Of a stretch of 64,000 nucleotides of DNA, positions 490-46,102 are shown piece after piece. The translations under genes were made by a program, and so were the position numbers. Source of the DNA: Pseudoclavibacter sp. CFCC 11306 (GTDB taxonomy: Bacteria > Actinomycetota > Actinomycetes > Actinomycetales > Microbacteriaceae). The DNA lies in NCBI RefSeq assembly GCF_008831235.1, contig NZ_WBKF01000001.1, forward strand, positions 802,529 to 866,528. Reading direction: 5' to 3'. How positions within the stretch are numbered: the first letter of the stretch is position 1; every line of letters begins with the position of its first letter. The notes under the pieces were generated by a model, which searched no databases, had not been told where the DNA came from, and saw only the letters and a program-made list of their open reading frames with translations.

Positions 490-1992
490 TTACTTCGACT
501 CGGCGTCAGTGCTCTGCGCACTCGCCGGGGAGCCGTCGGACAGCAGCCCCAGACGCTTCTGGCGGCGCTGCACGATCAGACCGGCCACGACGCTCACTGC
601 GGCGACGACCAGGCTCACGTAGAGCTCGATGCGCGTCTGCAGACTCTTGTTGAACGTCATGTAGGCGAGCAGGGCGACCAGGGCGACGATCACGATCCAG
701 GTGATGTACGGGAAGCCCCACATCTTGATGGTGCCGTTGGCCTTGCCCGGGACGACACCCTGCTTCGCGAGCATGCGGCGGCTGCGCAGCTGAGAAACGG
801 CGATGACGAGCCAGACGAAGATGGCGGTCGCACCAGTCGAGTTCACCAGGAACGCGAAGACGTAGTCGGGCACCGTGTAGTTCAGGACCACCGAGATCAG
901 GCCGACGATGGCCGAAGCGAAAATGGCCACGTACGGGGTGTTGTGCCTGTTGACCTTGCGGAATGCCCGCGGCGCCTCACCACGACCGGCCAGCGAGTAG
1001 GCCATGCGTGATGCGGTGTACAGCGATGCGTTCAGCGTCGACAGCAGGGCCGTCAGCACGACGAAGTCCATGACCACGTCGACGCCTGGAATGCCGACGT
1101 ACTCCAGTGCGCTCACGAAGGGAGACTTGCCCGAAACGACCTGGTCGTGTGGCAGCAGCAGCACGATGATGGTGATCGATCCGATGTAGAACAGCAGGAT
1201 TCGCCAGATGACCGAGTTCACCGCTTTGCGCACAGCGTGTGCCGGGTGCTCCGACTCGCCTGCGGCCACGGTGGCCACTTCGGCGCCGAACATCGAGAAG
1301 ATGACCGGCAGCAGCGCGACGAAGATGCCAGAGATGCCGTTCGGCATGAATCCTCCCTGTGCACCGTAGTCGACGCCCTGGTGCGCACTCGGGATGATCC
1401 CGGTCACCAAGCCGATGCCGAAGAGGATAAACAGCGTGATCGCGACGATCTTGATGCCGGCGAACCAGAACTCCATCTCACCGAAGCTCTTGACCGAGAC
1501 CAGGTTGAGCCCGAGAAAGAGCACGGTGATCACGAGAGCGGGAATCCACTGATCCAGTCCGGGCAGGTACTTCGTGATGATCTTGGCTGCCGCTGTGGCC
1601 TCGATACCGACGACCACCACCCAGAACCACCAGTACAGCCAGCCGATCGACAGCCCCGCCCACGGCCCGATGAACTTCGTGGCGTAGGTCGAGAACGAGC
1701 CGGTGTCCGGACTCGCCGAGGCCATCTCTCCGAGCATCCGCATCACCAGGATGATCACGATGCCCGCGAGGGCATACGAGATGATGACGGCGGGGCCCGC
1801 CGAGATGATCGCGTTGCTGGACGCCACCAGCAGGCCGGCTCCGATGATGCCGCCCAGGGCGATCATCGAGAGGTGGCGAGGTTTCAGCGTGCCCGCCAGG
1901 CGTGGTTCCGGCTCGGCACGGTCAAGCTCGCCGACTGTGAACACCGCCTCCGTTGGCGGAGTCGTCGGCTTCTCGTTCTTCTCAGAACTCAT
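490..1992 (-). CDS. gabP: Amino-acid permease, probable GABA permease
   Basis: A 500-residue integral membrane transporter of the amino acid-polyamine-organocation superfamily, AAT type, with about 12 hydrophobic segments. The first helix carries GGIIGAGLL (residues 47-55), the substrate-binding glycine-rich bend of the family, followed by MLGEMA and a GSFSTYA segment typical of AAT members. It most likely imports gamma-aminobutyrate or a related amino acid by proton symport. The GABA assignment is inference from the neighbouring gabD and gabT genes on the same strand; the sequence alone supports only amino-acid permease. An AGAGGA ribosome-binding site lies 8 nt before the ATG. It is separated from gabD by a terminator and has its own intergenic region carrying a TGTACA pair that recurs near the regulator gene. 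Confidence 0.85.
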   Translation of the reverse strand: MSSEKNEKPTTPPTEAVFTVGELDRAEPEPRLAGTLKPRHLSMIALGGIIGAGLLVASSNAIISAGPAVIISYALAGIVIILVMRMLGEMASASPDTGSFSTYATKFIGPWAGLSIGWLYWWFWVVVVGIEATAAAKIITKYLPGLDQWIPALVITVLFLGLNLVSVKSFGEMEFWFAGIKIVAITLFILFGIGLVTGIIPSAHQGVDYGAQGGFMPNGISGIFVALLPVIFSMFGAEVATVAAGESEHPAHAVRKAVNSVIWRILLFYIGSITIIVLLLPHDQVVSGKSPFVSALEYVGIPGVDVVMDFVVLTALLSTLNASLYTASRMAYSLAGRGEAPRAFRKVNRHNTPYVAIFASAIVGLISVVLNYTVPDYVFAFLVNSTGATAIFVWLVIAVSQLRSRRMLAKQGVVPGKANGTIKMWGFPYITWIVIVALVALLAYMTFNKSLQTRIELYVSLVVAAVSVVAGLIVQRRQKRLGLLSDGSPASAQSTDAESK

Positions 1993-16747: not shown

Positions 16748-16753
16748 TATAGT
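16748..16753 (+). promoter_or_regulatory. -10 element of the Trp-leader promoter
   Basis: TATAGT ends 7 nt before the ATG at 16761, so transcription would start at or next to that ATG. No convincing -35 hexamer is seen at 16725-16730. Confidence 0.6.
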
Positions 16754-16760
16754 CATGGCC

Positions 16761-16811
16761 ATGCAGTTCTCGCGCAGCGCTTGGTGGTGGCCGTCCTTCC
16801 GACGGCACTGA
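16761..16811 (+). CDS. Trp-codon leader peptide
   Basis: A 16-residue leader peptide, MQFSRSAWWWPSFRRH, with three consecutive TGG codons at 16782-16790 and a TGA at 16809-16811. An in-frame ATG at 16755 would add two residues but lies only 2 nt from the -10 hexamer. Position, size and codon content match tryptophan leader peptides that control ribosome-mediated attenuation. The peptide itself probably has no function; ribosome stalling at the Trp codons under low charged tRNA-Trp is the signal. The gene it precedes is an MFS transporter, not a trp biosynthetic gene. Confidence 0.85.
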   Translation: MQFSRSAWWWPSFRRH

Positions 16812-16857
16812 CCCGCGCACCGCGCACACATTCAGGCCGCCGATCGAGCGGCCTTTC
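16789..16857 (+). promoter_or_regulatory. Tryptophan attenuator (pause, antiterminator and terminator hairpins)
   Basis: Three mutually exclusive structures can be drawn. The pause stem pairs 16790-16795 with 16801-16806 (6 bp). The antiterminator pairs 16803-16811 with 16832-16839 (8 bp with one bulged A). The terminator pairs 16834-16840 with 16848-16854 (7 bp) and is followed by a T run at 16854-16856. A ribosome stalled at the Trp codons (16782-16790) would cover the first strand and favour the antiterminator; one that reaches the TGA covers the second strand and lets the terminator form. Confidence 0.8.
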
Positions 16858-16937
16858 GCATCTGTGCGATTCTCTCTCATCGGCGGCACGGCCCCGAATC
16901 CGATCAGAAGATCGGCCCCATGCACAGAGAGATCACA

Positions 16938-18299
16938 GTGAATCAGCGAACAACCCACGAGCCATCACCGAAGCTGCACCTGCCCGATGACCCGCCTGCC
17001 GCGACGCAGCCTCGTCACGGCCTGCTCGGTCGCCTCGCCCTCGCCTCGGGAGTCGGCACGGCACTCGAGTTCTACGACTTCGCTCTCTACGCCACAGCCA
17101 CCTCGCTGGTGTTCAACAAGGTGTTCTTCGTCGTCGACGACCCGTGGTTCGGGGCGTTCCTCGGGTTCGTGACCTTCGCGGTCGGGTTCTTGATGGCGCC
17201 GATCGGCGCGCTGCTCTTCGGTCACTTCGGCGACCGGCTGGGCCGCCGAAACACCCTGATCGCCACGTTCACCCTGATGGGTGCTGCGACGTTTCTCATG
17301 GGTGTGCTGCCGAGCCACGCGACGATCGGCATCGCGGCCCCGCTGCTGCTGCTCTTTCTGCGTCTCGTGCACGGCATCGCCCGCGGCGGCGAGGTCAGCG
17401 GTGCGGCACTCATCGCGATCGAGCACGCACCGAAGGGCAGGCGCGGCCTGTACGGCAGCTTCGTGACCTTGGGGTCGCCCATCGGCGCAGGGCTTGCGAA
17501 CCTGTCATTTCTGCTGATTCTGCTGCTGCCGCAGGATGTCGTGGTGTCGTGGGCATGGAGAATCCCGTTCCTGCTCGGCGGCCTCGTGCTCGTCGTCGGC
17601 CTGGTCACGCGTCTGCACGTCGACGAGACGCCCGTGTTCAAACAGCTGCAGAGCGAACGCAAAGTCGCGAAACGGCCCATCGCCGAGACGCTGAGGCACA
17701 GCTGGGGTCGCGTGCTCGGAGCGGCGGGCGTGATGTTCGGCTTCAACGCGTTTCAGTATGTGCTCTTCACCTTTCTGCTCTCGTTCGGCACCGAGCCGGT
17801 CGCCCAGCACGGGCTCGGCCTCGAGCGCAGCGTGCTGGTGACCGGCACGCTGTTCGGCTGCCTCGGGCACGCCGTGACGATTCTGCTCAGCAGCGTGATC
17901 TCTGACCGGGTGGGCCGCAAGCCGGTGATCCTGACCGGAGCGGTGCTGCTCGCGCTCTACGCCTTTCCCATGTTCTCGCTGTTCACCGCTGGTTCGTCGG
18001 CTGACGCCGCCATGGCGATCGTGATCGGATTCATCATCGCCGGCATCATGTTCGGCCCGATGCTCACCTGGTTCTCACAGCTGTTCGCACCGGCGCAGCG
18101 CTACACAGGCATCGGCCTGGGCTTTCAGATCGGCGCGGCGCTCGGTGGCGGCTTCTCCCCGCTGATCGCGAACCGGCTCTTGGTCGCGACCGGCACCACC
18201 GTCTCGATCTCGATCTTTCTCGTGGCGGCGATGGCGCTGAGTCTGGTCTGCCTGATCGCCCTGCCCGAACGCCACCGTGAGGTTCCCGTCGATGCCTGA
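16938..18299 (+). CDS. MFS transporter, metabolite:H+ symporter family, under Trp attenuation
   Basis: A 453-residue 12-helix major-facilitator transporter. The first helix reads GTALEFYDFALYATA, the signature of the metabolite:H+ symporter (MHS) family of ShiA, KgtP and ProP, and FGDRLGRRN after helix 2 is the loop motif of the superfamily; SDRVGRKP repeats it in the second half. The GTG at 16938 has AGAGAG 7 nt upstream; the ATG at 16920 has no site. The attenuator upstream predicts more expression when charged tRNA-Trp is scarce, so uptake of tryptophan, or of an aromatic precursor such as shikimate, is the best hypothesis. A VIT-type gene follows after 24 nt and may be partly co-transcribed. 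Confidence 0.85.
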   Translation: MNQRTTHEPSPKLHLPDDPPAATQPRHGLLGRLALASGVGTALEFYDFALYATATSLVFNKVFFVVDDPWFGAFLGFVTFAVGFLMAPIGALLFGHFGDRLGRRNTLIATFTLMGAATFLMGVLPSHATIGIAAPLLLLFLRLVHGIARGGEVSGAALIAIEHAPKGRRGLYGSFVTLGSPIGAGLANLSFLLILLLPQDVVVSWAWRIPFLLGGLVLVVGLVTRLHVDETPVFKQLQSERKVAKRPIAETLRHSWGRVLGAAGVMFGFNAFQYVLFTFLLSFGTEPVAQHGLGLERSVLVTGTLFGCLGHAVTILLSSVISDRVGRKPVILTGAVLLALYAFPMFSLFTAGSSADAAMAIVIGFIIAGIMFGPMLTWFSQLFAPAQRYTGIGLGFQIGAALGGGFSPLIANRLLVATGTTVSISIFLVAAMALSLVCLIALPERHREVPVDA

Positions 18300-44635: not shown

Positions 44636-46102
44636 ATGCAGGACGGGCAGACGAGCAGAGAGACGAGCTCGAGCACGACGAAGGCGAGAAGCGGCTTTCG
44701 CACGAGACACCTGACCATGATGGGTCTGGGCTCGGCCATCGGCGCCGGCCTTTTTCTCGGCAGCGGGGCAGGCATCGCGATGGCGGGGCCCGCGATCATC
44801 GTCTCCTACGCCGTAGCCGGCGCTCTCGTGCTCATCGTGATGCGCGCCGTCGCCGAGATGGTCTCGGCACGCCCCTCGACAGGCTCGTTCGCCACCTACG
44901 CGTCACAGGCGTTCAACAAGAAGGCCGGGTTCACCCTCGGCTGGCTGTACTGGTTTCTGCTGATCATGGTGCTCATCGCCGAGATCAGCGGAGCCGCCGG
45001 CATTCTCCACTCGCTGGTTCCCACAGTGCCGCAGTGGGGCTGGGCGCTGATCTTCGTGGTCTCGTTCGCGGCGGTCAATCTCTGGGGCGTTCGCAACTTC
45101 GGCGAGTTCGAATTCTGGCTCTCGGGGGTCAAGGTCGTCACCGTCGTGGTCTTCCTGATCATCGGCGTCGCACTGATCGTCGGCATTGTGGGCGACGGCC
45201 CGGTGGGCTTCTCGAACTTGGTCGAACACGGCGGCTTCGCTCCGCAGGGCTTCAGCGGTGTCGCGGCCGGGCTGCTCGCCGTGATGTTCAGCTTCGGCGG
45301 CATCGAGATCATCACGATCGCCGCGGCCGAGGCCGATCGCCCGCGTGAGGCGATCCGCGCGGCGACCAAGAGCATCTTCTGGCGCATCCTCATCTTCTAC
45401 ATCGGCAGCATGCTCGTCATCGCCACGCTGCTGCCGTGGAACGACCCGGCGGTCAGCGGCCCGAACGGCCCGTTCGTCGCAGTGCTGCAGCTGGCTCACA
45501 TACCGGCCATTGCGACGGTCATGCAGATCATCGCCGCCCTCGCGCTGCTGTCGGCGTTCAACGCGAACATCTACGCGACCTCGCGCATGGCCTATTCGCT
45601 GACAGCGCAGGGTGAGGGGTTCGCTCCCCTGCTGCATCTGTCGAAACGCAAAGTGCCGACCAATGCCGTCTTGGCCTCGATCGTGCTCTCGTTGGTCGGG
45701 GTGTTCCTCAACTGGTGGATTCCCGGTCAGGTCTTCACTGTGCTGCTCGACCTCGTCGGCGCTGCGCTGCTGGTCGTCTGGGCGGGCATGCTCGCGTCAC
45801 AGCTGCGTCTGCACCGCGAGCTCGAGCGCGAGGGGTCGATCAGTCTGCGCATGTGGTGGCACCCGTGGCTGTCGTGGATCGGGCTCATCGGGCTCGCCGC
45901 GTTCGCCGGGCTGATGCTCTGGAACGAACAGACTCGCTGGCAGCTGCTCGGCACGATCGCCATCACGCTGGTGATCTGGCTCATCGGCCTCGTCAGAGGC
46001 GTCGATCGACACCGTTCGACGATGCCCGGCGACCTGTCGCCTGAGGCTGGTCAGGGCAGCGGGCCAGTCGTGACGGGGCGTCCGGGCGTCGACGACCACT
46101 GA
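44636..46102 (+). CDS. APC-superfamily amino-acid permease
   Basis: A 488-residue transporter of the same AAT group as the one at 490, with about 12 helices. GLGSAIGAGLFLGSGAGIAM is the first helix, GSFATYASQAFNKKAG the second, FSFGGIEIITIAAAEADRPR the segment around helices 6-7. Such proteins import aromatic amino acids, GABA, Asp/Asn or lysine; nothing pins the substrate. The ATG at 44636 has AGGAA 7 nt upstream; the ATG at 44624 has poor spacing. The gene sits as an insertion, with its convergent rhodanese neighbour, between clgR and cinA. The 3-prime end overlaps the rhodanese gene by 52 bp. Confidence 0.87.
   Translation: MQDGQTSRETSSSTTKARSGFRTRHLTMMGLGSAIGAGLFLGSGAGIAMAGPAIIVSYAVAGALVLIVMRAVAEMVSARPSTGSFATYASQAFNKKAGFTLGWLYWFLLIMVLIAEISGAAGILHSLVPTVPQWGWALIFVVSFAAVNLWGVRNFGEFEFWLSGVKVVTVVVFLIIGVALIVGIVGDGPVGFSNLVEHGGFAPQGFSGVAAGLLAVMFSFGGIEIITIAAAEADRPREAIRAATKSIFWRILIFYIGSMLVIATLLPWNDPAVSGPNGPFVAVLQLAHIPAIATVMQIIAALALLSAFNANIYATSRMAYSLTAQGEGFAPLLHLSKRKVPTNAVLASIVLSLVGVFLNWWIPGQVFTVLLDLVGAALLVVWAGMLASQLRLHRELEREGSISLRMWWHPWLSWIGLIGLAAFAGLMLWNEQTRWQLLGTIAITLVIWLIGLVRGVDRHRSTMPGDLSPEAGQGSGPVVTGRPGVDDH

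Follow-up and report, generated by a model that had tools for sequence, protein, structure and literature searches.

A probable tryptophan attenuator precedes an MHS-type transporter gene in Pseudoclavibacter

A tryptophan attenuator was found in front of the gene for an MHS-type transporter in a stretch of 64,000 nucleotides from Pseudoclavibacter sp. CFCC 11306 (hereafter the window), and comparison with related genomes marks it as a real element. Very probably it acts as a ribosome-mediated transcription attenuator that senses charged tRNA-Trp and controls a single gene, that of an MHS-family proton symporter. The mechanism is classical; the target, a transporter, appears to be new. The features of the unit, all on the forward strand, are the following:

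16748-16753 (+), -10 promoter element TATAGT, read from the sequence
16761-16811 (+), leader ORF, predicted to be leaderless, encoding MQFSRSAWWWPSFRRH and a stop; WWWPS.RR conserved, N-terminal part variable
16791-16805 (+), 1:2 (pause) hairpin CCGUC-CUUCC-GACGG within the leader ORF; stems 16791-16795 and 16801-16805
16803-16839 (+), 2:3 antiterminator, CGGC-A-CUGA (16803-16811) with UCAG-GCCG (16832-16839)
16834-16856 (+), 3:4 terminator-like hairpin AGGCCGC-CGATCGA-GCGGCCT; stems 16834-16840 and 16848-16854; conserved in four species
16938-18299 (+), MHS-type MFS transporter of 453 aa with a conserved GTG start and the Shine-Dalgarno sequence AGAGAGA; Pfam MFS_1

The preliminary description of this DNA had named a TATAGT promoter element and a leaderless ORF of 16 residues with three adjacent Trp codons, and both were borne out: the hexamer lies 7 nt before the leader ATG, and the ORF, which is conserved in relatives, reads ATG CAG TTC TCG CGC AGC GCT TGG TGG TGG CCG TCC TTC CGA CGG CAC TGA, with the codons TGG TGG TGG at 16782-16790 and the stop TGA at 16809-16811. 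In this it matches a classical ribosome-mediated Trp attenuator, whose leader ORF is short and holds Trp codons in tandem. The spacing from the TANNNT hexamer to the leader ATG is exactly 7 nt in all five leader-bearing genomes, namely four of Pseudoclavibacter and one, G065, of another genus. From this spacing transcription is predicted to start on the ATG at 16761, so that the mRNA would be leaderless for the leader ORF, and the conserved frame together with such a start suggests that the leader is translated. A second in-frame ATG is found at 16755, where Pseudoclavibacter sp. 13-3 has GTG.

As in other classical Trp attenuators, a 1:2 hairpin follows the Trp codons toward the stop. This is the pause stem read earlier at this place. 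Its stem is identical in all four Pseudoclavibacter species, is longer in G065, and shows one G-U change at L103, one of several related loci before a second tryptophanyl-tRNA synthetase gene (trpS2). The antiterminator takes in the final codon of the leader together with its stop, which also agrees with the first reading. Of the 7-bp terminator with a T run that had been described, the stem stood but the T run was overstated, since only TTT (16854-16856) is present and a standard terminator scan gives the hairpin no score. Three U are found in the window and in Pseudoclavibacter sp. 13-3, and the U-tract is absent in P. soli, P. caeni and the trpS2 leaders. To have called the attenuator complete was therefore generous: leader and hairpins are in place, but the terminator is weak in the window and U-less in relatives.

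Folding was computed for the part of each transcript that lies beyond the ribosome, in two states: one with the ribosome stalled while the first Trp codon occupies the A site, the other with it at the stop. For the window, the 3:4 hairpin had a probability of 0.07 in the stalled state vs 0.99 in the stop state, so the two pairings 2:3 and 3:4 exclude each other as in a classical attenuator. The stalled-state equilibrium values were 0.60 for Pseudoclavibacter sp. 13-3, 0.97 for P. soli and 1.00 for P. caeni; because the last two keep 3:4 when the ribosome is stalled and 13-3 is intermediate, a switch in these species would need co-transcriptional kinetics. When the transcript was cut before segment 4 with the ribosome stalled, as if RNA polymerase had only now passed segment 3, the fold of lowest energy was the antiterminator in each of the seven sequences tested, three of which are trpS2 leaders, and in P. 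soli and P. caeni the mutual exclusion was found in such truncated transcripts only. The 2:3 duplex of the window has an energy of -12.4 kcal/mol, which 2% of shuffles equalled; the scores for P. soli and P. caeni, 0.08 and 0.26, are not significant alone. Segment 2 varies as CGGCACUGA, CGGUC and GACGGCCC, and segment 3 differs in step as UCAGGCCG, GGCCG and GGGCUGUC, a covariation that is thin because only three or four independent sequences are available. Taken from these folding results, the classical model fits the window well, and the relatives too if folding is co-transcriptional.

Under this model, when Trp-tRNA is plentiful the ribosome would pass WWW to the stop and cover segment 2, the 3:4 hairpin would form, and transcription would mostly end. 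When Trp-tRNA is short, the ribosome would stall on WWW and cover segment 1, segments 2 and 3 would pair, 3:4 would be blocked, and the transporter would be made. Both the termination at the 3:4 hairpin and the response to tryptophan are predictions drawn from the arrangement of these segments.

The leader and the transporter have been kept together. The preliminary description had staked its reading on conservation of the leader and hairpins upstream of orthologous transporters, and all four Pseudoclavibacter genomes examined carry the leader before the orthologous gene, with the C-termini SAWWWPSFRRH in Pseudoclavibacter sp. 13-3, GAWWWPSARRS in P. soli and RAWWWPSSRRS in P. caeni. In the N-terminal part only the window and 13-3 agree; otherwise both its length and its sequence vary. 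Invariant among the four species are TGGTGGTGGCCGTC, CGACGG and CAGGCCGCCG-TCGAGCGG, and only the leader ORF is better conserved than the 3:4 hairpin. Three genomic settings were observed, the upstream divergent gene being the same in the window and 13-3 and two different ones in P. soli and P. caeni; thus leader and transporter stay together while their surroundings change. The covariance model R1 was found in all four Pseudoclavibacter genomes (E 7.6e-14 to 1e-15). The source genome holds one confident match (E 1.2e-15; next best E 0.8), and no other leader copies were found in it. On both strands of the window the attenuator leader is the sole short ORF with WWW, and among 32 sites with a -10 element and a start codon 6-8 nt beyond it is the only one that opens a WW mini-ORF. 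Several candidates were rejected: a weak second R1 match in P. caeni (L145, E 0.097) lacks a short Trp leader at that position, another R1 match (L105, E 0.002) looks like coding sequence, and exact-pattern scans of the family and class gave mostly chance matches in coding sequence, with L062, L068 and L078 discarded on inspection.

Beyond Pseudoclavibacter, among the 300 genomes of the family that were searched, an orthologous transporter (at least 60% identity) was present only in G065, an 83% complete assembly. A reduced leader, MTSNRIGWWPSN and stop (ending WWPSN), stands there at the same 7-nt spacing from the -10 element before a 60%-identical transporter, and a hairpin GGCCGUC / GACGGCC extends across the leader stop codon. 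Inspection of about 35 further MHS loci, most of them near 40% identity, showed no comparable leader close upstream. In the protein tree the transporters with the leader group together in a single clade of five, with support of 100/100; about a dozen distant rows of that tree are probably wrong-frame, judging from their odd composition and long branches, and the five-member clade is independent of them. Every member of this clade has the leader, and the other MHS relatives inspected are without it; the reading has thus survived the refutation proposed for it in the preliminary description. At the G065 locus (L087, reverse strand) a perfect hairpin CCTTTCAGTG/CACTGAAAGG was also observed to cover the transporter Shine-Dalgarno sequence, with an upstream CCGCTGAAAG that can compete; this hairpin may represent another kind of output device than the Pseudoclavibacter 3:4 hairpin.

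Attenuators of this type had been said to stand normally before trp or tryptophanyl-tRNA synthetase genes, and the nearest other use encountered here is indeed a second trpS gene. A search with R1 across 396 genomes of the order added five convincing loci, each from the same other family (f8). In these a leader ending RTGWWPSSRRP-stop or close to it, with a GTG start 6 nt after TANNNT, is followed by a tryptophanyl-tRNA synthetase gene. In genome G481 the leader-bearing trpS is the second one, and the other trpS is without such a leader. From these matches, the nearest sequence relative of the window element is a trpS2 attenuator, a class also represented in S. avermitilis (PMC1262725). The C-terminus GWWPSSRRP-stop is near-identical to WWWPSFRRH-stop of the window, and the 1:2 hairpin sequence, the leaderless start and a U-poor terminator-like hairpin are common to both; the trpS2 elements differ in the GTG start 6 nt from the -10 element, in two Trp codons instead of three, in another 3:4 stem and in an enzyme as target. 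The likeness may reflect descent or convergence, the sequence being too short to tell. The five trpS2 leaders were further seen to hold a strong GACGGCCC/GGGCUGUC antiterminator and a U-less terminator-like hairpin, and the trpS Shine-Dalgarno sequence, judged by eye, also lies within a hairpin.

The gene thus controlled had been placed 80 nt beyond the attenuator and assigned to the MHS family. Its GTG at 16938 begins 81 nt after the end of the T run (16856), and this start was chosen because Pseudoclavibacter sp. 13-3, whose protein is 85% identical, shares the GTG and the Shine-Dalgarno sequence but not the ATG at 16920. The family assignment holds in kind, TIGR00883 (MHS) being the best of all models, but the score of 352 bits lies under the curated cut-off of 443; since the match (46-441) is full-length and best yet sub-cut-off, the protein is a divergent MHS relative. 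The ShiA equivalog model gave 258 bits against a cut-off of 538, TcuC 202 and ProP 185 bits, and identity to the E. coli proteins is 36% for ShiA, 30% for ProP and 30% for KgtP. The next gene (VIT family, 18324) was not seen downstream in relatives by inspection, and the unit is therefore taken as leader plus transporter.

In the 2.35 Mb source genome the attenuator is the only trp-type leader found. The host trpE, trpC, trpB and trpA, in one run after hisF-hisI (L085 5532-12300, outside the window), have no recognisable Trp/WW leader, and its one trpS is likewise without a Trp leader; hence uptake, rather than synthesis or charging, would be under Trp-leader control in this host, and therefore the substrate points to tryptophan or a precursor. 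The transporter probably imports tryptophan or an aromatic precursor. Since its expression is predicted to rise as tryptophan runs short, its most likely function is the import of tryptophan or of a source of it, such as shikimate, anthranilate or indole compounds. The genome contains nine AA_permease (PF00324) genes, so the host could take up amino acids without this transporter; two amino-acid permease genes of PF00324 were noted within the window itself, at 556-1875 (-) and 44708-45982 (+). No T-box match was obtained in the 64 kb window.

An origin by chance, from a random WWW mini-ORF and hairpins in a GC-rich intergenic stretch, would draw some comfort from the ordinary folding energy of the locus (z -1.2), and because of that energy the case beyond chance rests on conservation. 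Conservation contradicts it: five genomes keep the frame and the spacing, the leader is restricted to a single transporter clade, and the source genome gives a single confident covariance-model match, which leaves a chance origin a negligible probability. It is unlikely, though less so than chance, that the leader works through translation initiation or Rho-dependent termination, with a ribosome on WWW altering downstream structure or Rho access. The U-tracts missing from P. soli, P. caeni and the trpS2 leaders fit such an action, as do the G065 hairpin CCUUUCAGUG/CACUGAAAGG that covers the Shine-Dalgarno region and the pairing of UCUCUCU with the Shine-Dalgarno AGAGAGA in the predicted fold of the window, and actinobacterial leaders without obvious terminators have been published (PMC1262725). 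However, the computed accessibility of the Shine-Dalgarno sequence did not change between the stalled and stop states in any of five sequences, so that its sequestration was rejected as the switch, and this independence from ribosome position argues against translational control. Moreover, the 3:4 hairpin is strongly conserved, and transcription attenuation needs just such a 2:3 pairing across the stop of the leader.

A different doubt concerns the transporter, which could export a TrpRS inhibitor or a tryptophan analogue, low charged tRNA-Trp then signalling poisoning and not hunger. Auxiliary TrpRS genes confer resistance to TrpRS inhibitors such as indolmycin, and the nearest matching leader precedes a second trpS gene. 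Nevertheless, the protein fits best with metabolite/H+ symporter models (TIGR00883, ShiA, TcuC, ProP) and very weakly with efflux models, and to our knowledge the characterised members of that symporter group are importers, so export appears highly improbable and transcription attenuation of an importer is the preferred reading.

In Actinobacteria, Trp attenuators of the same plan were described for trp operons and trpS, those of S. avermitilis having been predicted by comparison (PMC1262725), and the trp operon of C. glutamicum is reported to be attenuated (PMC11802643). The trpL elements of Corynebacterium and Streptomyces (PMC1262725, PMC11802643) share with the window a short leader carrying two or three Trp codons in a row, the same logic, and alternative 2:3 and 3:4 hairpins with common GGCC-type blocks; they differ in having biosynthesis targets and a clear poly-U, in contrast to the transporter target and the short or missing U tract of the window and its relatives. 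In Firmicutes, transporters are placed under tRNA-Trp control by T-boxes (PMC2494555), so that charging of tRNA-Trp likewise controls a transporter, but through direct binding of the tRNA and not leader translation, and in the ABC and NSS families instead of MHS. E. coli ShiA belongs to the same MFS subgroup (MHS) and is the nearest of the three E. coli members compared, with the window transporter in a separate clade. In the open-access papers that were searched, no report was found of a leader-peptide Trp attenuator before any transporter, nor of tryptophan transport by an MHS protein or of a tryptophan-attenuated MHS member.

It is tentatively proposed, as a suggestion we hold at somewhat less than even confidence, that the MHS clade of Pseudoclavibacter and the sister genus is induced by starvation and dedicated to importing tryptophan, which would make it the first such MHS protein and the first transporter known under a leader-peptide Trp attenuator, and that the attenuator was perhaps recruited from a trpS2-type leader, the trp operon having lost or never had one. 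MFS substrates are hard to predict, and a conserved leader that counts an amino acid offers a sharp and cheap prediction for this MHS clade. Here, Trp attenuation would serve uptake in place of biosynthesis or the charging of tRNA, and would do so in a lineage that shows no such leader before its trp operon; a leaderless, U-poor actinobacterial attenuator also becomes open to dissection. Elsewhere in the source genome, beyond the window, another trpB-like gene, a distant one (G000:C1:585084-586130, L097), was observed beside the trpB of the trp operon; it scores 134 bits, below the cut-off.
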